Virus record (IMG/VR): IMGVR_UViG_3300000101_000135
Location: 1-25,874 of that record
Length of the DNA: 25,874 bases
DNA from: a virus
Direction: 5' to 3' (one strand)
Below, in pieces: positions 6,575 through 25,874 of the stretch. Position numbers and translations under genes: made by a program. The first letter of the stretch is position 1. Each line of letters opens with the position of its first letter. The notes under the pieces were generated by a model. The model ran no database searches, was not told the origin of the DNA, and saw only the letters and a list, made by a program, of their open reading frames with translations.

Positions 6575-6602
6575 ATAAACAAATGGGCTTTATAATGGAT
6601 GA

Positions 6603-7792: not shown

Positions 7793-7834
7793 CAGTATAA
7801 ACAAAGTATATACAAAAAATATAAGGAGAAAAAT

Positions 7835-8491
7835 ATGAGTGTAATTAAGGGTCTCAAAAATATTAATGCCCTACTTGACAAGCCAAAGTACGACAGCGAC
7901 AAGCCTCGCGTTCGTTGGCTGAAACTAGCAGACGCACAGTCAGTGAAGATTCGTTTTATCGAAGAGCTGGACGAAGAGTCTGCCAACTATAATGAAAGCC
8001 GTGGCCTTTCCTTGGTGGTTAAAGAACACACCAATCCAAAAGACTACCGTCGTAAGGCCGTAGACACTATGGACTCAGAGGGCCGAGACTGGGCTGAAGA
8101 GATGCATCGCAAGGATCCAAAAGCTGGGTGGCGTGGACGTCTTCGTTTCTACTGCAACGTTCTCGTTGACGATGGAATTGAAGAGCCATACGCCGCTATC
8201 TGGTCAATGGGTGTCAGCAAGATGTCGTCTTTCAACACCATTCGGGAATACGCTTTGGAGACGGGTAGCATTTCAAATCTTACCTGGAAGCTTAAGCGTA
8301 ACGGTCAGGGTACGGAAACAAGCTACACGCTTATTCCTTCGGCTCCAGATAGTGAGCCATTCGCCTGGGGTGAGGTAGAGCCGTTTAACCTTGAGCTGGC
8401 TCTCACACAGATCCCTTATGCAGAGCAGGAAGCCTTCTACTTGGGCTTTGACACACCCTCTGTTACCTCTGCCACTAACGTGGAGTGGTAA
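7835..8491 (+). CDS. Single-stranded DNA-binding protein (T4 gp32-like candidate)
   Basis: A 218-aa protein with the strongest Shine-Dalgarno of this region (AAGGAG at 7823-7828, six bases before the ATG) and a 42-bp AT-rich leader upstream, suggesting high expression. The sequence has many aromatic and basic residues spread over beta-like segments (RWLKLADAQSVKIRF, GRLRFYCNVLV, AIWSMGVSKM, LTWKLKRNG), as expected for an OB-fold ssDNA binder. The N-terminal basic stretch resembles the helper-binding end of gp32-like proteins, and the C-terminus is acidic/aromatic before ending in VEW. Placement between primase and polymerase supports the role. No zinc-binding CxHC set like T4 gp32 is visible, so the family assignment is moderate. 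Confidence 0.75.
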   Translation: MSVIKGLKNINALLDKPKYDSDKPRVRWLKLADAQSVKIRFIEELDEESANYNESRGLSLVVKEHTNPKDYRRKAVDTMDSEGRDWAEEMHRKDPKAGWRGRLRFYCNVLVDDGIEEPYAAIWSMGVSKMSSFNTIREYALETGSISNLTWKLKRNGQGTETSYTLIPSAPDSEPFAWGEVEPFNLELALTQIPYAEQEAFYLGFDTPSVTSATNVEW

Positions 8492-8497
8492 TCTAGG

Positions 8498-11400
8498 ATG
8501 GGGTATGTTGGCTTACATGTTCACACTCATTTCAGTCTTTTCGATGGAATCGCTACTCCACAGGAGTACGTAGACAGAGCGGCAGAACTGGGAATGACTG
8601 CCTTGGCAATCACTGACCACGGTTCTCTTTCTGGTCACAGAGAGATGTATCGCGCTGCAAAAAGTAAGAACATTAAGCCAATACTTGGCGTGGAGGGCTA
8701 TATTACTGAAGACCGCTTTGATAAGCGGGATCGGGATAGTAGAGAAGGTCCTTTGGACTTGGTCTACAATCACATAGTCCTCCTAGCCAAGAACCAAAAA
8801 GGTCTAGAAAATCTTAATAGACTTAATGAGATTGGTTGGACAGAGGGCTTCTACAAGAAGCCACGTATTGACTATAAAGTTTTAGAGCAGTACAAAGAGG
8901 GCGTTATCGTTACCTCTGGGTGCCTCAGCGGAACTGTTGCTAAAGCAATTGAGGCTGGAGAGATTGCAGAGGCTAAGCGACAAATAGAGTGGCACAAAGA
9001 TGTGTTTGGCGATGACTATTACATAGAGATCATGCCACATAATCCAGCAGAGATGAACCATCAGCTTTTAGCTTTGGCAGATGAGTTCGGGGTAAAGCCA
9101 GTGGTAACCCCAGACTGTCACCATGCCCACACGGGGCAAAAAGACATCCAGGAGCTTAAACTAATTCTTAATACATACAGTAATAAGATTGAAAAAGACG
9201 CTACCTTTGAAAAGTCTAAGAAGAAGGATAGCCTCATGGATAGGCTTGATTATCTTTATGGTGCAGATCGACAAATGAGCTTTAACAAGTTCGATATCCA
9301 CCTCCTGTCTGATGAAGAAATGCGGACAGCAATAACGTCTCAGGGTATTGATAGGGAAGATATCTATGAGTCTACCCTGGAGATTGCTGATAAGGTAGAA
9401 GACTATAGTATTAATGATGGGCTGGACCTGCTTCCCGTTCAGTACCAAAACCCTGACCAGGAGCTTCGCACCCTAGCTCTGGAAGGATTAAAAGAGCGTG
9501 GAGTAGAGACCCAAGAGTATCTTGACAGGCTAGAAGAAGAGCTTAAGGTCATTGAGTCAAAGAACTTTGGGCCATACTTCCTTGTTGTTCGCAACATGAT
9601 TAACTGGGCAAAGAAGGAAGGGATCCAGGTTGGTCCTGGACGTGGCTCTTCTGCTGGCTCTCTGCTGTGCTATGCACTAAAAATCACAGACATTGACCCA
9701 ATTAAATATGGGCTTCTGTTCTTTAGGTTTATTAACCCAGACCGGAATGACTTCCCAGATATTGATACCGACATTCAGGACACAAGGCGTGAAGAGGTTA
9801 AGGATTATCTAGTTAAGCAGTACCGACACGTGGCTTCTATTGCAACATTCTTGCAGTTTAAAGACAAGGGTGTGGTGCGTGATATTGCTCGGGTGTTGCA
9901 CATCCCTCTGTCAGACGTTAACAAGGTTGGAAAGTTATTTGACACCTGGGATGACTACTGCTCTTCCAAGCAAACAGCTTGGTTCCGTGAAAAGTACCCA
10001 GAGATTGAGAAGTATGGCGACCAGCTGCGTGGTCGCATTCGCGGCACTGGTATCCATGCCGCTGGTGTTGTAACCAGCAAAGAGCCTATCTTCCGTCATG
10101 CTCCAATGGAAACACGCACCGCTCCAGGTTCTGGAGAGCGTATCCCTGTTGTGGCGGTAGATATGGAAGAGGCAGAGCGTATTGGTCTGATTAAGATTGA
10201 TGCCTTGGGCCTGAAAACGCTAAGTGTTCTCCGTAGCGCACTTGACATTATTAAAGAGCGTCACAAGAAAGATATTGACCTGCTCAAGATCGATCTAGAT
10301 GACCCCAATATTTATGAAATGCTTTCTAGCGGACATACAAAGGGCGTGTTCCAGTGTGAGGCAACTCCATATACAAACCTTTTGGTTAAGATGGGCGTCA
10401 GCAACTTTGACGAGCTGGCTGCTTCTAATGCTTTGGTTCGACCTGGGGCCATGAACACCATTGGAAAAGACTATATTGCCCGTAAGCATGGCAAGCAGAG
10501 TATTCGCTTTCATCACCAAATTATGAAAGAGTTTACCTCAGAGACCTATGGCTGTATCTTGTACCAGGAGCAGGTCATGCAGGCTTGTGTAAACTTGGGC
10601 GGGATGTCTATGGTCGAGGCAGACAAGGTACGTAAGATTATTGGTAAGAAGAAGGATGCCAAAGAGTTTGACGTGTTCAAGGATAAGTTTGTGGAGGGGG
10701 CTTCTAAGCTCATGGCCCCTAATGCAGCTACAGATCTGTGGCAAGACTTTGAGGCTCACGCGGGGTACTCTTTTAACAAGTCCCACGCTGTTGCTTATTC
10801 TACTCTATCTTATTGGACAGCATGGCTAAAGTATCACTATCCACTAGAGTTTATGTTCTCTATTCTTAAGAATGAAAAAGATAAAGATGCTAGAACAGAG
10901 TACCTGATTGAAACTAAGCGTATGGGGATTGCTATCAAGCTTCCACATGTTAACGACTCAGATACTGACTTTAAGATTGAAGGCAAGGGCATTAGGTTTG
11001 GTCTTTCTGGAATTAAATATATTTCAGATAACATTGCTTCTAAGTTTATGGCAGCAAGACCATTTGGCTCATATGCCGAGCTGGAAGACTTTTCTTCTCG
11101 TAAAGGTACCGGAGTAAACTCAAGATCTCTTCAGGCCTTGAGGATTATCGGTGCCGCAACATTTGAAGATAATCCAAGGGACGAGGAAGAGATTCGCTCT
11201 AACCTATATGAATATTTAAACTTACCAGAGTTTAATATTACGGTACCTTCCCACTACCATGCTTTTATTAATGAGGTCATAGACTTCGAGGAGAAGGGGT
11301 GCTTCGTCCTCCTGGGGATGGTTAAAGCTGTCAAGAGGGGCAAGGGCTGGTCTCGGGTAGAGATTCTAGACAAGACCGGCTCTGTTGGTATCTTCGACGA

Positions 11401-11770
11401 AGAGCAGACTGGCATTGAGACAGGAAAGACATACCTGTTGCTTGCAAGCGATAATCGAATTGTTTCCGCCATTCCAGCCGACGAGATAAAGGGCTCTGAC
11501 GCTGCTTTGATTAAGTTCTTAAACTATAAAATGTTGCCCTATAAAGATGACGAGATGCTTGTGGTTTCGTTTAAGCCAAGGGTAACGAAGGCTGGCAAAA
11601 AGATGGCAACACTGACAGTGGCAGACTCTTCTAGAGAACTCCATTCTGTGCTAGTGTTTCCAACTACATTTGCCAAAGCATATATGAAGATTCAGGAAGG
11701 CAATGTTCACACATTCTCTTTCGGAAAAACAAAAGATGGGACAGTGATATTAGATGACATACTTGGATGA
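8498..11770 (+). CDS. DNA polymerase III alpha subunit, DnaE-type, with intact PHP domain
   Basis: A 1090-aa replicative polymerase of the C family. The N-terminal PHP domain retains all nine metal-ligand positions known from actinobacterial DnaE1 (H7, H9, D16, H41, E66, H92, C142, D206, H208), suggesting a working 3'-5' proofreading site. The polymerase core has the PGRGSSAGS nucleotide-binding motif, the catalytic pair D421 and D423 in PDIDTD, and the third aspartate D568 in KIDALGLKTL. A helix-hairpin-helix region follows the YSFNKSHAVAY block, and an OB-fold (KAGKKMATLTVAD) lies near the C-terminus. Length is close to bacterial DnaE. The gene starts six bases after the SSB stop with a weak ribosome site and overlaps mazG by 17 bp. 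A separate DEDDy exonuclease lies at 13.5 kb. Confidence 0.95.
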   Translation: MGYVGLHVHTHFSLFDGIATPQEYVDRAAELGMTALAITDHGSLSGHREMYRAAKSKNIKPILGVEGYITEDRFDKRDRDSREGPLDLVYNHIVLLAKNQKGLENLNRLNEIGWTEGFYKKPRIDYKVLEQYKEGVIVTSGCLSGTVAKAIEAGEIAEAKRQIEWHKDVFGDDYYIEIMPHNPAEMNHQLLALADEFGVKPVVTPDCHHAHTGQKDIQELKLILNTYSNKIEKDATFEKSKKKDSLMDRLDYLYGADRQMSFNKFDIHLLSDEEMRTAITSQGIDREDIYESTLEIADKVEDYSINDGLDLLPVQYQNPDQELRTLALEGLKERGVETQEYLDRLEEELKVIESKNFGPYFLVVRNMINWAKKEGIQVGPGRGSSAGSLLCYALKITDIDPIKYGLLFFRFINPDRNDFPDIDTDIQDTRREEVKDYLVKQYRHVASIATFLQFKDKGVVRDIARVLHIPLSDVNKVGKLFDTWDDYCSSKQTAWFREKYPEIEKYGDQLRGRIRGTGIHAAGVVTSKEPIFRHAPMETRTAPGSGERIPVVAVDMEEAERIGLIKIDALGLKTLSVLRSALDIIKERHKKDIDLLKIDLDDPNIYEMLSSGHTKGVFQCEATPYTNLLVKMGVSNFDELAASNALVRPGAMNTIGKDYIARKHGKQSIRFHHQIMKEFTSETYGCILYQEQVMQACVNLGGMSMVEADKVRKIIGKKKDAKEFDVFKDKFVEGASKLMAPNAATDLWQDFEAHAGYSFNKSHAVAYSTLSYWTAWLKYHYPLEFMFSILKNEKDKDARTEYLIETKRMGIAIKLPHVNDSDTDFKIEGKGIRFGLSGIKYISDNIASKFMAARPFGSYAELEDFSSRKGTGVNSRSLQALRIIGAATFEDNPRDEEEIRSNLYEYLNLPEFNITVPSHYHAFINEVIDFEEKGCFVLLGMVKAVKRGKGWSRVEILDKTGSVGIFDEEQTGIETGKTYLLLASDNRIVSAIPADEIKGSDAALIKFLNYKMLPYKDDEMLVVSFKPRVTKAGKKMATLTVADSSRELHSVLVFPTTFAKAYMKIQEGNVHTFSFGKTKDGTVILDDILG

Positions 11771-12077
11771 AATGGCAGATCATCTGCACCAAGTTGCAAC
11801 AGAAAAAGGCTTCTGGCCAGAAGTAGTCGATGACATTTTTATTACCAAGCAACTAATGATGGTAGTGTCTGAGGCCGTAGAGGTTATGGAAGCAATCAGG
11901 AAAGACAAGGGTAAGGCAGAGGTAGCAGATGAGATGGCTGACATCATCATTCGCACGCTTGACTTATATGCTGGACTAGTAGAGAATGACTATACAGATA
12001 TTTCTCTAGACCAGGCTCTAGAAAGCAAAGTTAACTTTAATAAAGCAAGACCAGAAAGGCACGGTGTTAGGTTCTGA
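11754..12077 (+). CDS. MazG-like nucleotide pyrophosphohydrolase
   Basis: A small all-alpha NTP pyrophosphatase of 107 aa that hydrolyses NTPs or dNTPs to monophosphates; phage versions may also adjust (p)ppGpp or the dNTP balance. The MazG metal-binding signature is visible as EAVEVMEAI followed by EVADEMADIII (ExxE then ExxD). The start is uncertain: ATG at 11754, overlapping the polymerase gene by 17 bp, or the in-frame ATG at 11772 (giving MADHLHQ); neither has a strong ribosome site. It ends in an ATGA overlap with recA. It belongs with the other nucleotide-pool genes of this phage (DUF1599-like, GMPR-like, RNR). Confidence 0.88.
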   Translation: MTYLDEMADHLHQVATEKGFWPEVVDDIFITKQLMMVVSEAVEVMEAIRKDKGKAEVADEMADIIIRTLDLYAGLVENDYTDISLDQALESKVNFNKARPERHGVRF

Positions 12078-13084
12078 TGACAACAATTGATGAAGCTCTA
12101 TCGCAGCTAGATCCAAAGATTAGAAAAAAGTTGGGGCCAGCAGTTGGGATTAAAACTGAATTTCAGCCTACCCCTAGCCCAGGCTTGAATCGAGCATTGG
12201 GTGGAGGGCTTCCTTATGGGAGGCAGGTTCTCCTTTGGGGGAGCAAGGCTAGTGCCAAGTCTTCTTTGTGCATGCAGACTATTGGTCTAGCGCAAAAAGA
12301 AGGCAAGCTCTGTGCTTGGGTAGACGCTGAGATGTCCTACGATGAAAGTTGGGCACAAAGGCTGGGGGTAGACACCTCGCAACTATTATACTCAGAAGCT
12401 CGTAGTATTAATGACATGGTAGACGTCACTGTAGCACTGCTACACGCAGGCGTTGACCTGATTGTTATTGATAGCATTAGCTCTCTACTGCCAGCAGTTT
12501 ATTTTGAGAAAGACTCTTCCGAGCTGAAGCAGCTTGATAATACTAAGCAAATTGGTGCAGAGTCTAAAGATCTTAAACATGCTTGGATGATGATTAACTA
12601 TGCGAATAACCAGGAGAAGCCATCGTTGATCATGGCCATCTCTCAAGCCAGGAACAACATTACACCAATGTATACCCAGTCTGTTCCTACTGGTGGGAAT
12701 GCAACACAGTTCTTCTCATCTACAATCATTAAGCTGTTCTCGTCGTCATCAGACAACAATGCTATTAAGAGTAAAATTAGGTCTGGAGACAAGTTGATTG
12801 AGCAAAAGGTTGGTCGTAAGATTCGTTGGGAAGTCCAGAACTCTAAGACTTCTGCTCCAGGAGAGTCTGGAGAGTACGACTTCCACTTTAGGGGGGACCA
12901 AATAGGAATTGATGCTATTGGGGATCTTGTAGATACTGCAGAGATGCTTGGGCATGTCTCTAGGACTGGTGCCTGGTATCAACTCGAGGACGGCACCAAG
13001 GTCCAGGGACGAGAGGCCTTCATCGAGAAAGTAAAAGAAGATAAGTCGTTGCAAGAAAAGTTGAGGGCAAGTATCGATGGCTAG
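12077..13084 (+). CDS. recA: RecA recombinase
   Basis: A 335-aa RecA-family strand-exchange ATPase. The Walker A loop is GSKASAKS (55-62), which departs from the usual GPESSGKT but keeps the GxxxxxKS spacing. The catalytic glutamate lies in VDAEMSYD (E85), Walker B is LIVIDSISSLLP, and the ISQARNN segment plus GGNATQFF correspond to the RecA L1/L2 DNA-binding loops. The C-terminal part retains the GAWY motif typical of bacterial RecA, so it is closer to RecA than to T4 UvsX. Coupled to mazG by ATGA and followed by an overlapping zinc-ribbon gene, it heads the recombination cluster. Likely roles are recombination-dependent replication and double-strand break repair. Confidence 0.93.
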   Translation: MTTIDEALSQLDPKIRKKLGPAVGIKTEFQPTPSPGLNRALGGGLPYGRQVLLWGSKASAKSSLCMQTIGLAQKEGKLCAWVDAEMSYDESWAQRLGVDTSQLLYSEARSINDMVDVTVALLHAGVDLIVIDSISSLLPAVYFEKDSSELKQLDNTKQIGAESKDLKHAWMMINYANNQEKPSLIMAISQARNNITPMYTQSVPTGGNATQFFSSTIIKLFSSSSDNNAIKSKIRSGDKLIEQKVGRKIRWEVQNSKTSAPGESGEYDFHFRGDQIGIDAIGDLVDTAEMLGHVSRTGAWYQLEDGTKVQGREAFIEKVKEDKSLQEKLRASIDG

Positions 13085-13256
13085 CTACAATATATTCCCT
13101 GGCAAGTTTAAATGTCACACCTGTAAAAGTGAGGTGACAACTCTTCGTCTGTACGAGGAGACAAAGGTCATAACCTGGATGTGTCGTGACAGGCATGTCA
13201 GCCGTGTGTCCTTACAAACTAAAAAGAGTAAGAGAGATTATGAGCGAAAGATCTGA
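13077..13256 (+). CDS. Small zinc-ribbon protein
   Basis: A 59-aa protein read from the ATG at 13077, overlapping the recA end by 8 bp and the next gene by 17 bp. It has a clear zinc-ribbon style pattern: FKCHTCKSEV gives a CxxC pair (C13, C16), and WMCRDRH supplies a Cys and a His (C36, H40). The C-terminal third is very basic (QTKKSKRDYERK), suited to nucleic-acid contact. It starts the gene run just after recA, so it may act with RecA or with the nuclease candidate that follows. Function not known; the metal-binding pattern is seen, the role is inference. Confidence 0.72.
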   Translation: MASYNIFPGKFKCHTCKSEVTTLRLYEETKVITWMCRDRHVSRVSLQTKKSKRDYERKI

Positions 13257-13527
13257 GAGTAAAAGAATCGGAGCTAAGCTAATAAAAAACAGCGGAAGAG
13301 GCCAGAAAAAGGGGGACGCATCCTGGCATAATTTTATAGTGGACTTCAAAGAAGTTGGTAAGAGTTTTACTTTAAATAAAGATGTATGGGCAAAAGCTAC
13401 AACTGATGCCTTGAAATCTAACAAAGACCCTGCTATAGTTGTAGTTATAGGTAGCGAAGGAATGAAGACAAGACTAGCAGTCATAGAGATGGCTTTGCTA
13501 GAACAATTGCTAGAAGAGAGAGAATAA
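13240..13527 (+). CDS. Hjc-like PD-(D/E)XK endonuclease, Holliday junction resolvase candidate
   Basis: The start is taken at ATG 13240, giving 95 aa; an in-frame GTG at 13186 would add a tail lying inside the zinc-ribbon gene and is less likely. The sequence has an early basic GAKLIKNSGRGQKKGDA block, then DFKE after a short spacer, a long helix (WAKATTDALKS), and a strand AIVVVIGSE. A Ser-Gly-Arg-x-x-x-K-x-D segment followed by (D/E)xK is the pattern of small archaeal/phage Hjc-type resolvases and related PD-(D/E)XK enzymes. It would cut branched DNA produced by RecA. The match is by motif and length only; another member of this nuclease superfamily is possible. Confidence 0.6.
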   Translation: MSERSESKRIGAKLIKNSGRGQKKGDASWHNFIVDFKEVGKSFTLNKDVWAKATTDALKSNKDPAIVVVIGSEGMKTRLAVIEMALLEQLLEERE

Positions 13528-14138
13528 TGAAAATATTAATGCTGGATATAGAGACGACACCCCTGCAGGTTTATACTTGGGGGCTTTGGGACCAGAACAT
13601 TGGTATCAATCAAATCATCAAGCCCACCGAGATGATGTGCTTCGGTGCAAAGTGGCAGGGCAAAAAGAAGGTTACCTTTAAGTCAGTGCACCACGACGGC
13701 AAAGAGGCAATGCTCAATGAGCTTCATAGCATGATGGAAGAAGCAGATGCCCTTGTTGGGTGGAACTCCGCTGCCTTTGACCACAAACACATCAAAAGGG
13801 AATTCCTTGAAAACAAGCTGTCTCCTCCATCGGTTGTTAAAGACCTGGACCTGATGAGTGTTGTCAAGGCTAACTTCAAGTTCCCGTCTAACAAGCTTGA
13901 CTACGTAGCGCAAGCATTAGGTGTTGGTTCTAAAGTAAAGCATTCAGGGTTTCAGTTGTGGATTGACTGCATGGCTGGTGACGACAAGGCATGGCGTGAG
14001 ATGAAGAAATACCAGATTCAGGATGTTGTTCTTCTAGAAGAGCTTTACCAGGTCCTGATCCCCTGGCTTCCAGGAGCTAGCAGCGTAACCATCAAGGAAA
14101 AGAGAGAGATCTCAGACCCAGAGAAGATGGTACAATAG
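13527..14138 (+). CDS. DnaQ-like 3'-5' exonuclease (DEDDy)
   Basis: A 203-aa exonuclease of the RNase H-like/DEDD fold. The first acidic pair is D7 and E9 in LDIETTP, the second block is VGWNSAAFDHK with D85, and the third motif is YQIQD with Y162 and D166, so this is the DEDDy class. The TAATG junction with the previous gene indicates coupling. It may proofread for the phage DnaE, whose own PHP domain also looks active, or trim DNA ends in recombination. No polymerase domain is attached, so it resembles the free-standing exonucleases seen in actinophages. Start choice is firm. Confidence 0.85.
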   Translation: MKILMLDIETTPLQVYTWGLWDQNIGINQIIKPTEMMCFGAKWQGKKKVTFKSVHHDGKEAMLNELHSMMEEADALVGWNSAAFDHKHIKREFLENKLSPPSVVKDLDLMSVVKANFKFPSNKLDYVAQALGVGSKVKHSGFQLWIDCMAGDDKAWREMKKYQIQDVVLLEELYQVLIPWLPGASSVTIKEKREISDPEKMVQ

Positions 14139-14139
14139 T

Positions 14140-14451
14140 ATGGTAACGACAGAGAACAAAACAACGATTGACATGATTAATGGTTTGTCAGAAATAGCAG
14201 AGTTCATGGATGATGAGGATCTTACACAGGCTCTCACTATGGTGGCTAAGCTAATTCTAAATCCAGGTATCCCAATCAATGTTGCTACACTAGAAATTGT
14301 GCGGTTACAAGCAATTGCAACAAAGATGTCTTTTAAGGCAACCTGGATGGCTAACGTAGATAAAGGAGACAGGGCGAAGAAGAACATATACTTTACAGCG
14401 GCATCATCTATCAATGATCTAGTTGCTGCCCTTAAGTATATTACCCGATAA
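14140..14451 (+). CDS. Small helical protein in the recombination cluster
   Basis: A 103-aa protein starting at an ATG two bases after the exonuclease stop. It is almost all alpha-helical: a first helix with NGLSEIAEFMDD, a second around LTQALTMVAKLIL, a helix with EIVRLQAIATKMSFKATWM, then basic residues (DKGDRAKKN) and a final helix ending in LVAALKYI. No cysteines, membrane segments or catalytic motifs. Its place between an exonuclease and a Cas4-like nuclease, near recA, makes a recombination-mediator or scaffold function (in the manner of UvsY) worth testing, but sequence similarity to UvsY is only vague. Confidence 0.62.
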   Translation: MVTTENKTTIDMINGLSEIAEFMDDEDLTQALTMVAKLILNPGIPINVATLEIVRLQAIATKMSFKATWMANVDKGDRAKKNIYFTAASSINDLVAALKYITR

Positions 14452-14455
14452 CATT

Positions 14456-15253
14456 ATGGCTAAAAGTTTATTAAATGAATTAATGGAAAAAGGTGAGAGG
14501 ACACAAAAGTCTTCTCCCGATATGGATGCTTTAATCCAAAAGATTCAGTCTGGATATGTCGCTAAGCGTGGTCCTAGGCATCAGCAGAAGAAAAGCTTTG
14601 CTCCTTCTACTATTGCTTACGGCCACGGTGAGTGCGCTAGATATTGGTACCTCGCCTTTGAGGGCGGTACCTTTGAGGACTATGCAGATCCCTTTGCTGG
14701 TGCAAACATGACCAACGGCACCAAGTCCCATGAGCGTATTCAGAAAGCAATGGAAGATGCGGGGATGCTCATTGATTCGGAATTTAAGATTATTAATGAA
14801 GACCCACCAATTTTTGGGTATGGGGATGTAATCTTAGACTGGAACGGAGAAGAGCTTCTTGGTGAGATCAAGACAGCTATGCAGGAAGGCTTCGAGTACA
14901 GAAAGAAGAGTCGTAAGGCTAAGAGCGGTCATTTGATTCAGCTTCTTATCTATATGAAGATTCTTAAAAAAGCAAAAGGTGTTCTCATTTATGAAAACAA
15001 GAATAATCACGAGCTGTTGACTATTCCAGTTGAAATAAATGACTACTACATTACATGGGTAAACCAAGCATTTGAGTGGATGAGAGATGTTCGTAAGGCG
15101 TGGGAAGCAAAAACATTGCCTACAAAAAACTATAGATCTAATTCTAAGATCTGCAAGACATGCCCTTTGGCAAAAGTCTGTGCGGATGCTGGAACTGGAG
15201 ACATCAAACTTAAAGCATTGGAGCCCCTGGATGAAGCCCTGTCAGTGGTGTGA
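14456..15253 (+). CDS. Cas4-like Fe-S PD-(D/E)XK exonuclease
   Basis: Start taken at ATG 14456, five bases after the previous stop; an upstream in-frame TTG at 14423 would overlap the preceding gene. The 265-aa protein has the core of the RecB/Cas4 nuclease family: a GTKSHERI segment with H92, GDVILDW (D124) and GEIKTA (E137, K139), then QLLIYMKIL (Q162...Y166). One Cys in GECARYW (C60) and three in CKTCPLAKVC (C233, C236, C242) are placed like the 4Fe-4S ligands of Cas4 and AddB. Such enzymes resect or trim DNA ends. No cas1, cas2 or array is present, so it is most likely a recombination or end-processing nuclease rather than part of CRISPR adaptation. Confidence 0.87.
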   Translation: MAKSLLNELMEKGERTQKSSPDMDALIQKIQSGYVAKRGPRHQQKKSFAPSTIAYGHGECARYWYLAFEGGTFEDYADPFAGANMTNGTKSHERIQKAMEDAGMLIDSEFKIINEDPPIFGYGDVILDWNGEELLGEIKTAMQEGFEYRKKSRKAKSGHLIQLLIYMKILKKAKGVLIYENKNNHELLTIPVEINDYYITWVNQAFEWMRDVRKAWEAKTLPTKNYRSNSKICKTCPLAKVCADAGTGDIKLKALEPLDEALSVV

Positions 15254-15539
15254 TACAACCTTTAAGGCAAATGTAAGCTACCAGATATATTGCTCTCCAG
15301 AGTGCCGGAACGCTGCAACTAAAGATAAAATATCTCAAAGATATGCGATCTCTCGTAGGACAAAGATGATGGCTAAAAAAAGATTCTGCAAATCTTGCGA
15401 GGTGTTGCTGTCTGCCTACAACGATGATGTGCTTTGTTTGTCTTGTGTTGTTAATCCAACAGATGTCTCCAAAGCTTTAAAAGAAATTAAGGGTATCTTA
15501 GATGGTAAAACTAAGCCAGATAACAAATCAACCGAATAG
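15231..15539 (+). CDS. Double zinc-ribbon protein
   Basis: A 102-aa protein starting at ATG 15231 after a GGAG site at 15220-15223; a longer version from 15087 would lie mostly inside the Cas4-like gene. Two zinc-binding clusters are visible: KPCQWCD with YCSPECRN (CxxC then CxxxC), and FCKSCEVLL with DVLCLSCV (two CxxC pairs). The linker between them is very basic (RYAISRRTKMMAKKR). The C-terminus is a charged helix and a Lys/Asp tail. The N-terminal cluster resembles treble-clef or recombination-endonuclease zinc knuckles, but no HNH or other catalytic residues are seen. It overlaps the Cas4-like gene by 23 bp and the RuvC-like gene by 38 bp, suggesting tight coupling. Confidence 0.7.
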   Translation: MKPCQWCDTTFKANVSYQIYCSPECRNAATKDKISQRYAISRRTKMMAKKRFCKSCEVLLSAYNDDVLCLSCVVNPTDVSKALKEIKGILDGKTKPDNKSTE

Positions 15540-16077
15540 AATATGTGCAATAGATGCTAGTACCAACAGCCTGGCCTTTGCAATCTTTGACAAGGACGAG
15601 CTTGAGGCCTGTGGCAAGATTCGGTTTGAGGGAATAAACACCTACAAGAAGTTGGCAGATGCTGCTATTAAAACACAAGCATTCTTCAATGTATATGGCA
15701 AGTTTGATGCTGTTGTAATTGAACATACTGTGTTTATGAATAGTCCAAAGACGGCGGCAGACCTTGCATTAGTGCAGGGAGCTTTGCTGGGGGCAATGTC
15801 GGTAATCGGGGTAAAGCAAATTAAATCAATTAACCCAATTGCTTGGCAAACCTTTATTGGTAATGGTAGGCTAACTACTCCAGAGAAGCAAGTTATTAGA
15901 TCTGATAATCCAGGAAAGAGTGACTCTTGGTATAAGACTAAGGAGCGAGAGTTCCGTAAGCAAAGAACTATCAGGTTTGTTAATACTATTTATGATAAGA
16001 GTATAGATGACAACGATGTATCAGACGCAATTGGCATTGGTCACTATGCAATAAGCAATTGGTCCAGGCTAGGTTGA
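15502..16077 (+). CDS. RuvC-like Holliday junction resolvase
   Basis: A 191-aa protein with RNase H-like resolvase motifs in order: ICAIDAST with D18, VVIEHTVF with E74, a long helix segment (AADLALVQGALLGAMS), and a final DVSDAIGIGHY with D172 and D175. This is the RuvC pattern, in which four acidic residues bind two metals. Phage RuvC-like enzymes resolve Holliday junctions and can debranch DNA before packaging. The start ATG at 15502 lies inside the preceding zinc-ribbon gene (38-bp overlap), and the first conserved strand follows within 15 residues, so it fits well. With the Hjc-like candidate at 13.2 kb, this phage may carry two different resolvase folds. Confidence 0.87.
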   Translation: MVKLSQITNQPNRICAIDASTNSLAFAIFDKDELEACGKIRFEGINTYKKLADAAIKTQAFFNVYGKFDAVVIEHTVFMNSPKTAADLALVQGALLGAMSVIGVKQIKSINPIAWQTFIGNGRLTTPEKQVIRSDNPGKSDSWYKTKEREFRKQRTIRFVNTIYDKSIDDNDVSDAIGIGHYAISNWSRLG

Positions 16078-16089
16078 CAAGGAGACACT

Positions 16090-16245
16090 ATGGCTGCTAA
16101 ACTTTATACAAACCAAACTTGGCTAAAGAAAAGGTTCCACCTAGATCGCAAAACTCCAGAAGAGATAGCGAAAGAGTGTGGGGTAAGCGTAGAAACTATC
16201 TATGTTTATTTATCAAAATTCGGATTAAGGAAGTCTAGGCGTTGA
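16090..16245 (+). CDS. 51-aa helix-turn-helix protein
   Basis: A small protein read from ATG 16090 with an excellent AAGGAG site (16079-16084, five bases upstream). The sequence has a basic N-terminal part (TWLKKRFHLDRK), then a classic HTH: TPEEIAKECGVSVETIYVYL, where the first helix (EEIAKECG), the turn (VS) and the recognition helix (ETIYVYLSKFG) are plain, followed by a basic tail (LRKSRR). It resembles sigma-region-4 or resolvase-type HTH segments but has no other domain. The stop overlaps the next TTG start by four bases. A regulator of late transcription is one possibility; function unknown. Confidence 0.72.
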   Translation: MAAKLYTNQTWLKKRFHLDRKTPEEIAKECGVSVETIYVYLSKFGLRKSRR

Positions 16246-16514
16246 GCAAAGAGACAGAGCAAAAGATAACAGAAGTAATGTCTGGCATTGAAAAGATGCT
16301 AATTGAAAAGAACAGGGCCTACGGAGATTCTGCCATTGATCCAGTTAGAGTGTTTTCAAAAGCTGATGCGGTAGAACAAATCTATGTGCGCATCGATGAT
16401 AAGCTTTCAAGGGTTAAACGGGGGCATGAATACCCTGGAGATGATACCATCTCAGACTTAATAGGATACTTAGTGTTATTACTTGTTGCAAAGGAGAAAA
16501 ATGAGAGAGTATAG
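16242..16514 (+). CDS. MazG-like / DUF1599-like small protein
   Basis: A 90-aa, mostly helical protein starting at TTG 16242 inside the HTH gene's stop. It has the block KNRAYGDSAIDPVRVF followed by IYVRIDDKLSRVKRG and DTISDLIGYLVLL. That order (an YGDS/F motif, then RIDDKL, then DLIGYL) is characteristic of DUF1599, the 'nucleotide modification associated domain 1' group, which is thought to relate to all-alpha NTP pyrophosphatases. Its neighbour is a GMPR-like enzyme, so a nucleotide-pool role is likely. It ends 14 bases past the ATG of that gene. The catalytic activity of this family is not established for this protein. Confidence 0.72.
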   Translation: MSKETEQKITEVMSGIEKMLIEKNRAYGDSAIDPVRVFSKADAVEQIYVRIDDKLSRVKRGHEYPGDDTISDLIGYLVLLLVAKEKNERV

Positions 16515-17520
16515 CAATAAAGAGCAGGTGTCGTTTGACGACATCCTTCTGGTCCCACAGGTTTCGGATATTAAGAGTCGAAAAAATGTATCGCTATCCA
16601 CCATCTTGGGGGATGGCCTAGAGCTAGATTTTCCAATTATTGCCGCCCCAATGGATACGGTGTGCGAAGCTGGCATGGCCCTTGCAATGAGCAACTATGG
16701 CGGCCTTGGCATCATTCATAGATACATGCCAATTGAAGAGCAGGCCAGCATGGTAGAGATGGTGAGGCAGGCCAATGCCGTTGTCGGAGGTTCTGTCGGT
16801 GCGACTGGATCGTTTCTAGAAGATGCAGGGCAGCTCGTTAACGCTGGTGCAACCCTGGTCCTTGTCGACGTTGCAAATGGTCACAGTCATCACGCAATCA
16901 ATGCTGTCTCAGCACTGAGAGAAGAGTTCGGAGAATCCCTACACATTATGGCTGGCAACGTTGCTACCTGGGATGGCTTCGCAAGACTGGCTGATGCTGG
17001 TGCAAACTCTATTCGGGTGGGGATTGGTGGTGGATCAGCTTGCACTACCAGAGTAGTTAGTGGACACGGCGTTCCAACGCTTGCATCAATCATGGATATT
17101 CGTGAAAGAGTAAGCTATGAAGATGCCCCCGCTCTAATTGCAGATGGTGGAATCAGAAATTCTGGGGATGCGGCTAAGGCTCTGGCAGCAGGTGCTCATG
17201 CCGTAATGGTTGGAAGATTGCTTGCTGGAACTTCAGAGTCTCCTGGAGAAGTTGACAATAATCACAAGGTGTTTCGAGGAATGGCATCTAGGGAGGCACA
17301 GGAGGAGGGCAGGGGCTCTGTATCTGGGGTAGAAGGCATCACGACTACCGTTCCTTTCGTTGGATCAGTTAGTAATATTATTAATGATTTCAGGGCGGGA
17401 TTGCGTAGTGCTCTATCTTATACTGGGGTAGACAACCTCTTTGACTTCCACGCCGATAGCGTGTATAATAAAGTATCAAGCAATTCACTAAATGAAACTA
17501 AACCTCACGCAAAGGAGTAA
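16501..17520 (+). CDS. IMP dehydrogenase/GMP reductase family enzyme, GMP reductase-like
   Basis: Start taken at ATG 16501, with AGGAG just upstream; upstream in-frame starts lack a ribosome site. The 339-aa TIM-barrel enzyme has no CBS domain insertion, matching GMP reductase length. The catalytic loop GGGSACTTR carries C181; SDILLVPQ-like start, [28 protein letters not shown] and VMVGRLLAG are the family's phosphate- and nucleotide-binding blocks. The flap after FRGMAS is short and lacks the Arg-Tyr pair of IMPDH, while E278 in VEGITTTVP matches the conserved catalytic glutamate. GMP reductase converts GMP to IMP with NADPH. This favours GMPR over IMPDH, but a CBS-less IMPDH cannot be excluded. 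It is a notable auxiliary metabolic gene. Confidence 0.85.
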
Positions 17521-17522
17521 TC

Positions 17523-17834
17523 ATGGCTCGTGGTCGCAAGACAGGCACAGGGGGAGTACCCTCAAAGTTTTTTCGTTTCCCAGAAATCACAGTAGATAAT
17601 TTTGTGATTGAGAGGGGAGAGATCATTAAGGTCAAAGACCAGTGGGGCATGAGGTTTAAGTTTGATAGCCTTGTTACAAATACTGAAACTGGTTCTCAGT
17701 GGGTAGACTGCTACGAAGTCTATAAGTTACGGACTGGATGTCTTCGGGCTTTTCCCCTAGACCAAATAAAGAGAATTCCAAAGAAAAGGGGCAAGCGACG
17801 TGCAAAGCGAACAACAACTAGTCCAGCATCTTGA
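17523..17834 (+). CDS. Basic conserved protein upstream of the terminase
   Basis: A 103-aa protein with a strong AAAGGAG site before ATG 17523. It is basic at both ends (MARGRKTGTGG, and a C-terminal Lys/Arg cluster around KKRGKRRAKR), with a core of beta-like segments: FFRFPEITVDNFV, GMRFKFDSLV and WVDCYEVYKL. This charge layout suggests nucleic-acid binding. It overlaps the small terminase candidate by 35 bp. A role in packaging or DNA binding is inference from charge and position. I cannot name the family. Confidence 0.6.
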   Translation: MARGRKTGTGGVPSKFFRFPEITVDNFVIERGEIIKVKDQWGMRFKFDSLVTNTETGSQWVDCYEVYKLRTGCLRAFPLDQIKRIPKKRGKRRAKRTTTSPAS

Positions 17835-18336
17835 CACAGTAAACAAGGTTGTTGGGGAATATCTTAAGGGTACAGACCCAACAAAAATTTCCAAGCAGCT
17901 CAGCATCCCTCGTACCAAGGTCGTAGAATATCTTAACGAGTGGAAAGAGATGGCTTCTGCCAATGACACAATTAGAGCTAGGGCCAGAGAAGCTTTGGCT
18001 GCTGCAGACGAGCACTATGGCAGACTAATCTCCAAGTCCTACGAAGTGATTGATGATGCAGATACCAATGGAGACTTGCGGTCTAAGTCTGGCGGTATCA
18101 AGTTAGTCATGGATATCGAGTCTAAGCGTATTGAGATGCTGCAGAAGGCTGGCCTGTTAGAGAATAAAGAGCTGGCAGAAGAAATGCTTGAGATCGAAAA
18201 GCGTCAAGAGATTCTCATGGGCATTCTTAAAGATGTTGCTGCAGAGCATCCAGAGATTAGGGATAAGATTATGAGAAGGCTTTCTGAAGCCTCTAATAAG
18301 CTAAATGAAACGGTAACGATTGTTCACGATGTTTGA
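17800..18336 (+). CDS. Small terminase subunit candidate
   Basis: A 178-aa, almost wholly helical protein starting at GTG 17800, after an AGGGG-like site in the overlapped gene. Residues ~28-50 (TKISKQLSIPRTKVVEYLNEW) form an HTH, followed by helices with KSYEVIDDAD and LVMDIESKRIEML, and a C-terminal coiled-coil (ELAEEMLEIEKRQEIL). An HTH plus a central oligomerisation helix region is the usual plan of small terminase subunits, which bind the packaging site and recruit the large subunit. The gene directly precedes terL and overlaps it by 8 bp, which is the main support. Pairwise similarity to a known TerS was not tested. Confidence 0.75.
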   Translation: MQSEQQLVQHLDTVNKVVGEYLKGTDPTKISKQLSIPRTKVVEYLNEWKEMASANDTIRARAREALAAADEHYGRLISKSYEVIDDADTNGDLRSKSGGIKLVMDIESKRIEMLQKAGLLENKELAEEMLEIEKRQEILMGILKDVAAEHPEIRDKIMRRLSEASNKLNETVTIVHDV

Positions 18337-20110
18337 TGATTTTTTGGAGGCCCTGGAGGACAGCCCATTTGAAGAAACTCCTGTAGACGCACACACGTTT
18401 GTAGAAGATTCAAACTTTTTGGGCCAGCCACCACTGTCCAAGATTCAGTATGACATTGTAGAAGCTATGAGCCAGATCTATCGTAAAGAAGATCTTATTG
18501 TTTTGATGGGTGAAGAGGCTGGTGCCCAGTACTTTAAAAAGTTTACAAAGAATGAAGTCATCTTGCAGCTTGGCAAGGGTAGCGGTAAGGACTTCGTTTC
18601 TACCGTAGCTGTAGCATACATTGTATACAAGCTTCTATGCCTGAAGGATCCTGCTAGATACTATGGCAAGCCTTCCGGTGACGCCATTGATATTATCAAC
18701 ATCGCAATCAACGCACAGCAGGCAAAGAATGTTTTCTTTAAGGGATTCAAGACGAAGATTGAGAAGTCTCCTTGGTTTGCTGGTAAGTATTATTCAAAGA
18801 TGGACTCTATTGAATTTGATAAAACTGTTACTGTTTACTCTGGACACTCTGAGAGGGAATCTCACGAGGGCCTAAACCTTTTGGTAGCGGTGCTTGATGA
18901 GATTTCTGGCTTCTCCTCTGATGTTGGAACTGGTAATGAGCAGGGCAAGACGGCTGACAATATCTATAAAGCCTTTCGTGGTACCGTAGACTCTCGCTTC
19001 CCAGACTTGGGGAAGGTTGCGTTGCTGTCCTTCCCACGGTATCCTGGCGACTTTATTTCATCTAAGTATGATGATGCTATTTTAGAAAAAGAAGTGATAG
19101 AGAGAACCCACAAGTTTGTTATTAATCCAGATCTTCCAGAAGACTCTCCTGGTAATACCCTAGATATTGCTTGGGAAGAAGACCAGATTACTGGATATAA
19201 ATACCCCAATGTGTTTGCCTTAAAACGTCCCACTTGGGAGGTAAACCCCACGAGGAAGATTGATGATTTTAAGTTGGCATTCTATACAGATCTTGGTGAC
19301 GCTATGATGCGGTTCCTTTGTGTGCCGACCTATTCCTCTGACGCATTCTTTAAGCAGCGGGACAAGGTTAGGGCTTGTATGAGTCTTCGCAACCCCTTGG
19401 ATGCATTCAGAAGGTTCGAAGAAAACTTTAAGCCAGACCCAGATAAAAAATACTTTGTCCATGCCGACCTTGCTCAACGCCACGACAAGTGTGCTGTAGC
19501 AATTGCTCACGTGGATAAGTGGGTTAATATTCAGGTCATCAAGGACTACGAGCAGGTTGCTCCATTTGTTGTTGTGGATGCTGTGGCATGGTGGGAGCCA
19601 AAGATCGAGGGGCCAGTCAATCTGTCAGAAGTTAAGCAATGGATCCAAAACCTTCGTAGGCTAGGCTTTGACATTGGAATGGTAAGCTTTGACCGCTGGC
19701 AATCTTTCGATATCCAGAATGAGCTTAAATCTGTTGGTATGCGAACAGAAACTGTGTCTGTAGCCAAGAAGCACTATGAAGACATGGCTATGCTGATGTA
19801 TGAAGAGCGTCTAGTTATGCCAACAATTGAGCTTTTATTTGAAGAGCTTACAGAGCTTAAGATTATGAAGGGCAACCGGGTAGATCACCCACGCAAAAGC
19901 TCTAAGGACTTGGCGGATGCTGTGTGTGGTGCTGTTTTTGGTGCCATCTCTCATACCCCAAAGAGCAACAACCTTGAGGTAGAGGTTCACACTTTTAGGG
20001 ACAGATCCAAGACACGACTTGAAGAACTGCCCGATAACGTGATACACTATAAGTCGAAAGAAATGCCAGAAGACGTTCGAGACTATTTGGATAGGCTTGG
20101 TTTAGTGTAA
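18329..20110 (+). CDS. Terminase large subunit (packaging ATPase and nuclease)
   Basis: Start taken at ATG 18329 (MFDD); a TTG at 18320 would add three residues. The 593-aa protein is the packaging motor. The ATPase half has a Walker A loop GKGSGKD (82-88) and Walker B ending in VLDEISG (D190, E191). The nuclease half is RNase H-like: VHADLAQRHD with D380, SFDRWQSFD with D455, and KDLADAV with D527/D530. The short gap between domains and the order match headful- or cos-type TerL proteins. It lies next to a TerS candidate but is separated from virion genes by the replication region, an unusual layout. Sixty-two bases of untranslated DNA follow. Confidence 0.95.
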   Translation: MFDDFLEALEDSPFEETPVDAHTFVEDSNFLGQPPLSKIQYDIVEAMSQIYRKEDLIVLMGEEAGAQYFKKFTKNEVILQLGKGSGKDFVSTVAVAYIVYKLLCLKDPARYYGKPSGDAIDIINIAINAQQAKNVFFKGFKTKIEKSPWFAGKYYSKMDSIEFDKTVTVYSGHSERESHEGLNLLVAVLDEISGFSSDVGTGNEQGKTADNIYKAFRGTVDSRFPDLGKVALLSFPRYPGDFISSKYDDAILEKEVIERTHKFVINPDLPEDSPGNTLDIAWEEDQITGYKYPNVFALKRPTWEVNPTRKIDDFKLAFYTDLGDAMMRFLCVPTYSSDAFFKQRDKVRACMSLRNPLDAFRRFEENFKPDPDKKYFVHADLAQRHDKCAVAIAHVDKWVNIQVIKDYEQVAPFVVVDAVAWWEPKIEGPVNLSEVKQWIQNLRRLGFDIGMVSFDRWQSFDIQNELKSVGMRTETVSVAKKHYEDMAMLMYEERLVMPTIELLFEELTELKIMKGNRVDHPRKSSKDLADAVCGAVFGAISHTPKSNNLEVEVHTFRDRSKTRLEELPDNVIHYKSKEMPEDVRDYLDRLGLV

Positions 20111-20172: not shown

Positions 20173-20572
20173 TTGACTTTACCAATTGATTTAGTTTACT
20201 TTTCTAACAAATCTGAAAACACTAAAAGATTTGTAGATAAGCTAAGTGACCTTAGCTGGAGAATTCCTTTAGTCTGGGATAGCGAGAATCCATATTTGCA
20301 TAGTCGAGAATTTGTTCTCGTATTGCCAACATATGGAGCTGGCAGGGGTAGCCACGTTATTCCTTCTCAGGTGAGGAAGTTTCTTAATGTTAGATCAAAC
20401 AGAGAGATGCTTCGTGGGGTTATCGGGACTGGAAATACTAATTTTGGAGAGCATTTCTGTAAAGCTGCAGAAATGATCTCAGCCAAAACAGGGGTACCAC
20501 TCATTGGCAAAATAGAAATATTCGGTACAGAAGACGACGTTAAAACAATTAAAGAAAGATTGAGGCTGCTTT

Positions 20573-20583
<11 letters not shown>
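20173..20583 (+). CDS. nrdI: NrdI, flavodoxin-like RNR activator
   Basis: A 136-aa flavoprotein that supplies the oxidant for assembling the dimanganese-tyrosyl radical cofactor of class Ib ribonucleotide reductase. The start is TTG 20173, after GAGGAAG. NrdI features are visible: an early phosphate-binding loop [12 protein letters not shown], a LPTYGAGRG loop, and the [15 protein letters not shown] segment that contacts FMN. The C-terminus overlaps nrdE by 11 bp. Gene order nrdI-nrdE-nrdF is the standard class Ib operon. No nrdH (glutaredoxin-like) gene is seen here, so reducing power for NrdE must come from the host or from elsewhere in the genome. Confidence 0.92.
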
Positions 20584-24026
<3,443 letters not shown>

Positions 24027-24126: not shown

Positions 24127-24366
24127 ATGTTTGTTTTTAATATAATTGGTCGTATGTTTGCTGTTTTTGTCGTAAATGCGTTTGCTGTCCTTGCTGGCGG
24201 TGCCATCCTCGACATTGAATGGTGGAAGACGCTAATCATTGCTGGTTTAATTGGTGTTGGTCAGGTGTTGGATGACATGGCCCGTGCTTACATTGCAGAT
24301 GGCAAGTTGACAAAAGATGAAGTTGAGCAGGCTTTTGAGAATGCCTCTCACTCAAGCGATAACTAA
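24127..24366 (+). CDS. Holin-like small membrane protein
   Basis: A 79-aa protein with GAAAGG about ten bases upstream, separated from the ATG by an odd CTCCCCCCT run. It has two hydrophobic segments: residues ~2-28 (FNIIGRMFAVFVVNAFAVLAGG and on) and ~33-46 (WKTLIIAGLIGVGQV), with a short acidic turn between. A charged, probably cytoplasmic C-terminal helix (KLTKDEVEQAFENAS) follows. Such a short, two-segment membrane protein, with its own promoter and followed by a terminator, fits holins and related membrane proteins of actinophages. No endolysin is seen in the window. A general membrane protein is the alternative. Confidence 0.6.
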   Translation: MFVFNIIGRMFAVFVVNAFAVLAGGAILDIEWWKTLIIAGLIGVGQVLDDMARAYIADGKLTKDEVEQAFENASHSSDN

Positions 24367-24404: not shown

Positions 24405-24409
24405 AGGAG
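24405..24409 (+). promoter_or_regulatory. AGGAG ribosome site that decides an ATT start
   Basis: AGGAG lies eight bases before an ATT at 24418 and has no ATG, GTG or TTG at a usable distance. The only in-frame standard start is TTG 24391, which sits within the terminator and upstream of this site. The spacing argues for ATT as the start codon. Confidence 0.5.
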
Positions 24410-24417
24410 TTAAAATT

Positions 24418-25874
24418 ATTAAAAGAGCCTGTTTCCTGTCTGCGATCTTACTGTTAGCTGTTGGCCCTGTGTTTGTTGCAGGGCCTGCGGCTGCTTCGTC
24501 ATTGCTATTGCTGAGTGCACCAGAAAACGTCACAGCAGAATATTCCGAAGGTAATATTCTTGTCACTTGGGACAACCCTGACACGGGGACTCTGAGTGCT
24601 GAGAGGTATATCATTATTTATGGAGCGGGGGACTCATTCTCTACTGCCATAGCTACTGGGAACGTTGGAGACAGCACAGCGCCAGATACGAGATACTCGT
24701 TCAGCTGTGAAAGTCTGCAGTCAGCACTTGGCGTAGCTGATTGCGTTGGAAAGTTTAGTTTTAGGGTTGTATCAAACAATACAACAGATCGGAAGTCCAA
24801 GTCGGTCTACTCTGCTTGGTCAAATATTGCCACTGTAGACGAAGAGGCTAGGTTAGCAGAAGAAGCTCGGCTAGCAGAGGAAGCTCGGCTAGCAGAAGAA
24901 GCAAGATTAGCAGAAGAAGCAAGATTAGCAGAAGAAGCAAGATTAGCAGAAGAAGCAAGATTAGCAGAAGAGGCTAGGGTAGCAGAGGAAGCAAGACTGG
25001 CAGAAGAGTCTAGGTTAGCAGAAGAGGCTAGGCTAGCAGAGGAAGCTAGGTTATCAGAGGAAGCTAGGGTAGCAGAAGAGGCTAGGCTATCAGAGGAAGC
25101 TAGGTTATCAGAGGAAGCTAGGGTAGCAGAGGAAGCGAGGCTAGAAGAGGCTAGGGTCTCCGAGGAGGCCAGGGTGGCACAGGTAGCTAGGGCTGCAGAA
25201 GAGGCTAGGGCTGCAGAAGAAGCCAGGGTAGCAGAACAGGATAGGGTAGCAGAAGAGGCTAGGGTAGCAGAAGAAGCCAGGGTAGCAGAAGAAGCCAGAC
25301 TGGCAGAAGAAGCAAGGGTAGCAGAAGAAGCAAGAGTCGTGGAGTTGGCAAGGATAAAAGAAGAACAAGAAGAGCAGATCAAGCTAGAAGAAGAAGAGCG
25401 GGTCAGGCTAGAAGAAGAGCGGCTGAGGCTAGAAGAAGAGCAGGTCAGGCTAGCAGAAGAAGAGCAGGTCAGGCTAGCAGAGGAAGAGCGGCTGAGGTTA
25501 GAGCAGGAGATGCTGGACCTGTTAAGTATAGAAGAGCTACAAGATCTGCAAATAGAAGAGCTAGAGTCAGAAGCAGATGAGATTTTTCAAACGGCAGACA
25601 AAGGCTCAGCAGAGTACCAAAAAGGACTAGACATTCTTACAGAAGCTGCAAAGGTAGATGACATAAAAGTATCTCCAGAACTTGCCAGTGCCCCAGTAGT
25701 TGGAGATATTGCAATAGCCGCAGTAAATGTGATCAATGCCATTGATAACTTTGGGGCAGACATGTCCCCCGAGGTGAGAGAAGACTCAGAGGAAGTTGTT
25801 GTCGCTGCCGTAATCGTTGGCGGGGTAGCTCAGCTAGCTTCTGGACCGGCAGCGGCAGCCAGTGCCGTCAGAAC
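24418..25874 (+). CDS. Secreted FN3-like protein with long hexapeptide helical repeats (3' partial)
   Basis: The frame is open from the ATT at 24418 to the window end (485 codons), so the gene is cut at its 3' side. Residues 1-26 form a clear Sec signal peptide: KR, a hydrophobic LLLAVGPVFVA core, and an AGPAAA cleavage region. Residues ~34-140 look like an FN3 domain (core Trp in ILVTWDNP, FSFRVVSNN strand), with C97 and C109 able to form a disulfide. From residue 142, about 28 copies of the hexad EEARLA/EEARVA follow to ~308, then acidic RLEEE-type helix to ~365, then ordinary helical sequence and a hydrophobic VVVAAVIVGG segment. It follows a holin-like gene. Function unknown: a cell-surface, spanin-like or virion-associated fibre are options. 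Alternative start: TTG 24391. Confidence 0.75.
   Translation, partial: MKRACFLSAILLLAVGPVFVAGPAAASSLLLLSAPENVTAEYSEGNILVTWDNPDTGTLSAERYIIIYGAGDSFSTAIATGNVGDSTAPDTRYSFSCESLQSALGVADCVGKFSFRVVSNNTTDRKSKSVYSAWSNIATVDEEARLAEEARLAEEARLAEEARLAEEARLAEEARLAEEARLAEEARVAEEARLAEESRLAEEARLAEEARLSEEARVAEEARLSEEARLSEEARVAEEARLEEARVSEEARVAQVARAAEEARAAEEARVAEQDRVAEEARVAEEARVAEEARLAEEARVAEEARVVELARIKEEQEEQIKLEEEERVRLEEERLRLEEEQVRLAEEEQVRLAEEERLRLEQEMLDLLSIEELQDLQIEELESEADEIFQTADKGSAEYQKGLDILTEAAKVDDIKVSPELASAPVVGDIAIAAVNVINAIDNFGADMSPEVREDSEEVVVAAVIVGGVAQLASGPAAAASAVR
24841..25342 (+). repeat. Tandem 18-bp repeats coding for EEARLA hexapeptides
   Basis: About 28 head-to-tail copies of an 18-bp unit, such as gaagaagcaagattagca, in frame. 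Four neighbouring copies near 24895-24966 are identical, whereas the later copies diverge by third-position and Leu/Val changes. One copy lacks a codon near 25141, shifting the hexad register by one residue. The pattern suggests recent expansion by slippage or unequal recombination at the 5' end and an older core. The minus strand is also open through the array, but as a low-complexity Ser/Ala shadow. Confidence 0.9.

Follow-up and report, generated by a model that had tools for sequence, protein, structure and literature searches.

A stalked exported protein and its small membrane partner in the lysis region of actinophages: a possible receptor for lysis timing

At the end of a viral contig, just behind a holin-like gene, lies a reading frame that starts with a secretion signal, continues with a compact head and then runs into a very long array of six-residue repeats. 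The question raised by this locus is what a phage might use such a protein for. The window, i.e. the whole stretch of DNA analyzed here, is the complete IMG/VR record IMGVR_UViG_3300000101_000135 of 25,874 bases and is probably a fragment. The reading frame, referred to as S, is the last one of the window, lies on the plus strand and runs open off the 3' end of the contig. A preliminary description had considered, among other options, a surface protein for superinfection exclusion, a spanin-like factor and a processed virion fibre. Our analysis indicates that S is the first of two genes that make up a module in the lysis region of an actinophage, the second encoding a partner termed M; relatives allow the module to be followed as far as M. 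We consider it very likely that the anatomy of S and M described below is correct for the window and for the family.

The phage and the architecture of S in the window

The terminase large subunit (TerL) of the window and its counterpart in Yaboi (Stanwilliamsviridae) and similar Streptomyces phages share about 53% identity along the whole protein, and the gene order DnaB-primase-SSB-PolIII-MazG-UvsX-resolvase-Cas4-like-RuvC is the one found in Yaboi at 54.8-71.0 kb. The replication/terminase block at 5351-20110 is a distant, shorter form of the Stanwilliamsviridae block, so that the window stems from an uncultured relative of that family. Additionally, a WhiB match was found in 12 of 25 related records (above the cut-off in 11), including the named phage DSL-LC01. 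TerL, replication gene order and WhiB thus agree with the actinophage origin proposed before, and we assign the window and its relatives to actinophages on these markers. The Pfam family TerL_ATPase was not found in eight records; PF03354 is unsuited to this phage group. Despite the likeness, Yaboi contains neither the FN3 domain of S nor M when the whole genome is searched. In the window, a flavodoxin-like gene lies directly 5' of both ribonucleotide reductase subunits (20173-23631) and is perhaps their electron donor.

S offers no canonical start codon with a Shine-Dalgarno sequence. The most plausible start codon is the ATT at 24415 or the one at 24418, two adjacent codons (24415..24420, plus strand) located 5 or 8 nt past an AGGAG (24405..24409, plus strand) that is conserved in the relative L247 and in other members with an AUU start. 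The window and L247, a close relative, have AGGAGTTAAAATT in common, and an upstream TTG of the window (24391) is CTG in L247; AUU is therefore the likely start. With the start corrected in this way, S still opens with the Sec signal peptide that had been claimed (24418..24495, plus strand; IKRACFLSAILLLAVGPVFVAGPAAA followed by SS), and export of S by this route is predicted. A signal-like N-terminal core was found in 116 of the 119 distinct complete members of the family.

The head follows at 24517..24834 (plus strand) and carries the family motif AERY..IATGNVGD (alignment A5). AlphaFold2 models it as one FN3 domain with a pLDDT of 91.6, and its closest folds in the PDB are FN3 domains (VIA Z up to 11.8). 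Model and fold matches support the FN3-like β-sandwich suspected at the outset, although the Pfam fn3 score of 17.0 bits lies below the cut-off of 25. In the model, Cys97 and Cys109 stand on either side of a short helix and are a candidate disulfide; the pair is no general feature of the S family.

Behind the head, Tandem Repeats Finder delineates the EEARLA hexad array at 24841..25331 (plus strand; period 18 nt, 27.4 copies, score 464), close to the roughly 28 hexads counted previously. The units differ chiefly by synonymous changes, with a pN/pS of 0.12 over 24 regular units that is biased downward by the regular expression used to pick them, which suggests that the hexad is conserved by selection on the protein. 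The array passes into a charged helical continuation rich in E, R, L and Q (25332..25530, plus strand). Altogether, the stalk comprises 232 residues (E 77, A 53, R 37, L 27) and contains neither proline nor glycine. A hydrophobic stripe at 100 degrees is absent (moment 0.01), and its ion pairs are regular, namely E-R and R-E at i+3 and R-E at i+4; ion pairs at i+3 and i+4, no hydrophobic seam and no helix breakers are the hallmarks of single alpha-helices. Since the seam is absent and the ion pairs are regular, the stalk is predicted to form a single alpha-helix, as the preliminary description had supposed, and not a heptad coiled coil; if continuous, it should measure about 35 nm. Where PHROG families match the stalk (7964, 5070, 5353), the aligned residues belong mostly to the repeat, and no function is given for these families.

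A left-handed β-helix, the hexapeptide-repeat fold, would instead make the array a rod of about 6 nm. The unit read as LAEEAR does agree with the pattern [LIV][GAED]xx[STAV]x, and NCBIfam returned weak matches to YdcK and LpxD. These matches are far under the family cut-offs (43.8 bits vs 350 for YdcK, 25.5 vs 242.5 for the LpxD family). Moreover, AlphaFold2 models the first hexads as a helix with a pLDDT of 93-96, the composition is one of E, A, R and L with neither Gly nor Pro, and relatives possess other helix-type stalks, so that we regard this fold as barely credible.

The remainder of S (25531..25874, plus strand) is a C-terminal domain with GADMSPEVRE from 25753, corresponding to the family motif GADMSxExxE, and a transmembrane (TM) helix from about 25795. 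The segment NFGADMSPEVREDSEEVVVAAVIVGGVAQL aligns with the family anchor, and the window contains a TM-grade 19-mer (KD 1.86). Of the acidic helical region previously noted behind the repeats, the charged helical stretch stands, and the anchor domain with its TM helix has to be added to it. The contig end cuts S inside this domain; the tail of S and the M gene would lie beyond. The C-terminus of the window used alone as a query against viral sequences, for which it is too diverged, gave no relative, and an exact 27-mer near the contig end, sought in order to extend the window, matched no contig.

Distribution and variation of the S family

A first viral scan with the S head of the window yielded 98 relatives. 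They follow a common plan, in which a signal peptide precedes a variable head and a long stalk, and a C-terminal domain with a TM helix leads to a basic end. We distinguished two anchor subfamilies, a freshwater-type (A2) and a marine-type (A3), whose habitat names are our own and not taken from sample data; at least 562 viral stretches match A2 and at least 558 match A3. IATGNVGD occurs in 43 of the 119 complete members, a conservation that is partly selected because the motif was among the patterns of the first scan; the anchor scans recover many members that do not contain it. A TM-grade 19-mer is found in 151 of 153 distinct S tails, and the charge behind the TM is net positive in all 153, while the LPXTG-type motif of sortase-anchored surface proteins was present in 0 of 128 members. 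An AlphaFold2 model of the full relative L062 was used for element order only, its overall confidence being low (62.8).

Pattern scans of 84,980 cell genomes with the head (A1) and the freshwater-type anchor gave 35 and 94 matches, respectively, and no relative; these scans rely on short patterns that may overlook diverged copies and left out the marine anchor and M. Among the sequences scanned here, the S family was found only in viral contigs, and the search for homologues in actinophages and their hosts that had been suggested earlier thus produced many relatives in actinophage contigs and none in the cell genomes. PADLOC, NCBIfam, Pfam and PHROG give no entry of known function for the S and M module, the S anchor has no family match in the same libraries, and a PADLOC match on the stalk of one relative was weak and dismissed as compositional. 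Annotated lysis families match neither S nor M, and window S and four relatives match no PHROG tail family, in keeping with the initial view that S is not a standard tail or lysis protein.

Among 72 distinct heads we identified PA14 in 14, fn3 in seven, the SUEL lectin domain in three and GLEYA in one (E 0.001). PA14 is above the Pfam cut-off in freshwater relatives (39.5 bits vs 24 in one of them), not in the window, and exceeds it in 15 of 28 records; across 28 records, FN3 never occurs more than once per record. Among solved PA14 domains, the nearest to these heads is the extracellular one of RsgI3, a membrane anti-sigma factor. The PA14 domain of L062 has homologues in RsgI3 (8.5e-23) and in an RTX adhesin (5.6e-6) and retains the Asp-Asp pair (alignment A4), a predicted calcium/sugar site. 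In such PA14 domains this pair binds calcium and sugar (PMC6650083). PA14 matches lie in S-sized reading frames with one exception, which is situated in a 1302-aa frame of another gene in the record of L008 (G006:C1:18807-19118).

In 383 of 836 pairs of members whose anchors are at least 80% identical, the heads have no detectable similarity. Dissimilar heads on near-identical anchors imply that heads are swapped on a constant base. The stalks measure 217-706 residues (median 401; 61 members) and are of a helix type, acidic, rich in Thr, Ser and Pro, or mixed. Judged by these sequences, a long spacer appears to be conserved and its chemistry free to vary. The stalk of L060 (6285-9191) is made of DTDGDGVFD-type repeats and not of a helix; the repeats look like calcium-binding thrombospondin type 3 repeats.

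The unusual start of the window recurs in the family. From the upstream stop to the signal core, 39 of 132 distinct S genes (about 30%) contain no ATG, GTG or TTG at all. The best-scoring codon in these genes is ATT (26), ATA (7), ATC (3) or CTG (2), one case being undecided, and most of the non-canonical starts stand behind a Shine-Dalgarno sequence. AUU, AUA or AUC starts are found in the window (24405-24420) and in L014, L024, L032, L034, L037, L041, L043, L067, L070, L078 and others. The same scoring picked ATT, ATA or ATC in neighboring genes in 4 of 129 (C0), 2 of 111 (C1), 1 of 68 (C2) and, as the highest value, 4 of 32 cases (C8). AUU starts are weak and, in known cases, sensitive to IF3. 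In Streptomyces, IF3 represses initiation at GTC in a pair of translationally coupled genes (PMC5472188). The frequency of AUU, AUA and AUC starts suggests that synthesis of S should stay low.

The partner gene M and its surroundings

M, located 3' of S, encodes a small membrane protein with two hydrophobic (2-TM) stretches and the conserved core TLLGxxIAWxxLxGSAxxxxGxA...W...R. Considering distinct S genes with at least 450 nt downstream, M was found within 900 nt in 154 of 155; the sole exception is L060, in which S is followed by a frame of like appearance. The usual gaps between S and M are 0, -3, 3 or 4 nt from the last sense base, i.e. the genes mostly overlap or directly adjoin, and this tight spacing indicates that their translation is probably coupled. 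The order in L255-L259 is S, holin, small TM gene, M.

In the Actinomycetia phage DSL-LC01, S and M are a single reading frame (L087:10705-13539) annotated as 'hypothetical protein'. A profile of IMG/VR M proteins matched the S protein of DSL-LC01 at 3e-7 for the C-terminal 100 aa and at 1e-5 for the full protein, compared to 4.5 at best for shuffles and other reading frames. The match of profile A7 was discounted as circular, since A7 includes DSL-LC01, and the fusion rests on the IMG/VR profile. The genome is metagenome-assembled (PMC10611076), and the fusion, known from this one assembly, is provisional. The near-obligate pairing together with one fusion points to a physical association, and S and M probably form a complex. 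No match to M was obtained by tblastn against a collection of phage isolates. No Pfam, NCBIfam or PADLOC family scored above the cut-off for M, and PHROG matches were to families of unknown function only. Described holin families in Pfam or PHROG likewise gave no match to M, a comparison for which holins are often too diverse.

The gene directly 5' of S in the window (24127..24366, plus strand; cluster C2) encodes a small holin-like membrane protein. It matches phrog_26427 (2e-24) and the holin family phrog_443 (2.8e-4), the latter in agreement with the holin-like neighbor noted at first sight; the 'nuclease' label of phrog_26427 is probably wrong, as the window member appears to be a small holin-like membrane protein. 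Homologues of C2 adjoin S in 75 loci. The commonest neighbors of S are a DUF5675 protein (C0, in the loci of 134 of 190 members) and holin-like proteins, and where 4 kb were available on both sides, another holin-like gene occurs in 30 of 34 loci and the DUF5675 gene in 28 of them. Some DUF5675 proteins 5' of S extend into an apparent peptidoglycan-binding repeat, which suggests that C0 is probably an endolysin. We infer from the holin-like and DUF5675 neighbors that S and M belong to the lysis region.

Further genes were observed near S. A micrococcal-nuclease-like gene (23628-24026, minus strand) stands just before the holin-like gene of the window, and 38 loci have relatives of this gene (C8) in the vicinity of S. 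A gene for an HslV-type peptidase (phrog_1040; C4) was seen close to S in L057, L076, L081 and about 50 loci. Cluster C16 (L083, L085, L086, about 20 loci, often 5' of S) encodes a second exported protein, rich in Ala, Thr and Val (MNSFKKISIATAAALAIVGLSVAPSSAA...) and resembling proteins of the surface-layer type.

Possible functions of S and M

S and M as an assembly, and their near-obligate pairing, correspond to no catalogued system; heads, stalk types and the holin-like topology are known pieces. We found no description of the module in the literature on freshwater actinophages, lysis cassettes, PA14 and DUF5675. Of the options listed in the preliminary description, the surface protein is the one that stands, and two features have to be added to it: anchoring in the membrane at the C-terminus and a gene for a membrane protein that almost always accompanies S.

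The closest precedent in terms of logic is found in T4, whose exported protein RI restrains the holin T once DNA of a superinfecting phage has entered the periplasm (PMC12642591). S and M similarly combine an exported protein with a co-encoded membrane protein in the lysis region, and by pairing and position M might likewise take part in governing lysis. Compared by description only, RI is small and periplasmic, whereas S combines a large head and a long stalk with a C-terminal TM helix of its own; M has two TM stretches, and the host type is not that of T4. In F1 mycobacteriophages, the lysis cassette encodes two membrane proteins, LysF1a and LysF1b, that are both required for efficient lysis (PMC13056207). 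This actinophage pair also has one 2-TM member with N-in-C-in topology, but by description LysF1b has an N-terminal TM helix and neither an exported head nor a stalk. Outside phages, RsgI anti-sigma factors, the PA14 sensors of Clostridium, join a homologous extracellular PA14 domain to a single TM helix; they are cellular proteins with a cytosolic sigma-binding domain, in contrast to the short basic tail of S. In RTX and yeast adhesins, a long stalk is likewise tipped by the PA14 fold with its Asp-Asp sugar site, yet these proteins differ in export, stalk and anchoring and are not phage-encoded.

One reading consistent with these data is that S and M would be one membrane complex on the infected cell, in which a stalk of tens of nanometres would hold the S head outside the wall. 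The head would bind an external target, such as glycans on neighbors or debris, or arriving virions, and M would relay this binding to the lysis machinery, so that the moment of lysis would change. We prefer coupling to lysis because mere masking or sticking needs no constant partner in the lysis region. On the other hand, most loci already have another holin-like gene and M matches no holin family, so that M may not act in lysis; the Thr/Pro-rich stalks of some members would be unable to relay a rigid signal, and the window itself ends before M. On balance, coupling to lysis as the purpose of the receptor comes near an even chance without reaching it. The full proposal, i.e. a wall-crossing receptor for lysis timing that is kept scarce through AUU starts and IF3, binds sugars or particles with its swappable heads and reports host density, debris or phages to the holin, is tentative and on the doubtful side.

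Alternatively, S could be a late surface lectin, with M only aiding its anchoring or insertion. The heads might cover the host glycans that phages use, prevent progeny from binding to debris, shut siblings out or stick the cell to new hosts; superinfection exclusion is possible. Lectin-type heads with the Asp-Asp pair of sugar-binding PA14 domains, the exchange of heads on a constant anchor and the constancy of stalk length with varying chemistry all fit, and head swapping and stalk variety are explained as well as, or better than, by coupling to lysis. This alternative nevertheless leaves the near-obligate M and the position in the lysis region unexplained, weak start codons are ill suited to a coat protein, and the head domains are not common to phage tail genes, the one PA14 domain excepted. 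We take it as a serious contender, if clearly below an even chance.

An envelope-disrupting lysis factor, in which S and M would weaken or tear the wall or surface layer as a spanin counterpart in the absence of an outer membrane, would suit the lysis-region neighbors and a protein that is anchored in the membrane by one end and carries glycan-type binding domains on the opposite end. However, S has no enzymatic domain, and free exchange of heads and stalks is unsuited to a force-bearing machine. The spanin-like factor considered earlier is disfavored, as a lipobox-like motif was found in 0 of 128 members, S combines a cleavable signal and a C-terminal TM helix instead of the N-terminal TM anchor of an inner-membrane spanin, and the phage is actinobacterial. 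We hold envelope disruption to be improbable. A processed virion fibre, to which the rod-like stalk and binding heads would correspond in outline, is more improbable still, because signal peptide and C-terminal TM helix are kept in nearly all complete members, the scanned members match no PHROG tail family and the tail-matching genes of the window lie at the end opposite to S.

The dominant actinobacteria of freshwater and the sea have abundant phages that have hardly been cultured. The occurrence of S and M in hundreds of viral stretches points to a common, unrecognized step at the surface of the infected cell. The recurrent AUU and AUA starts would additionally provide a rare natural set for the study of non-canonical initiation in actinobacteria. 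If S is a masking lectin, the module would represent a new, widespread route of superinfection control; if coupling to lysis is true, sensing of the environment before lysis would extend beyond the models T4 and N4, which would be of major importance.
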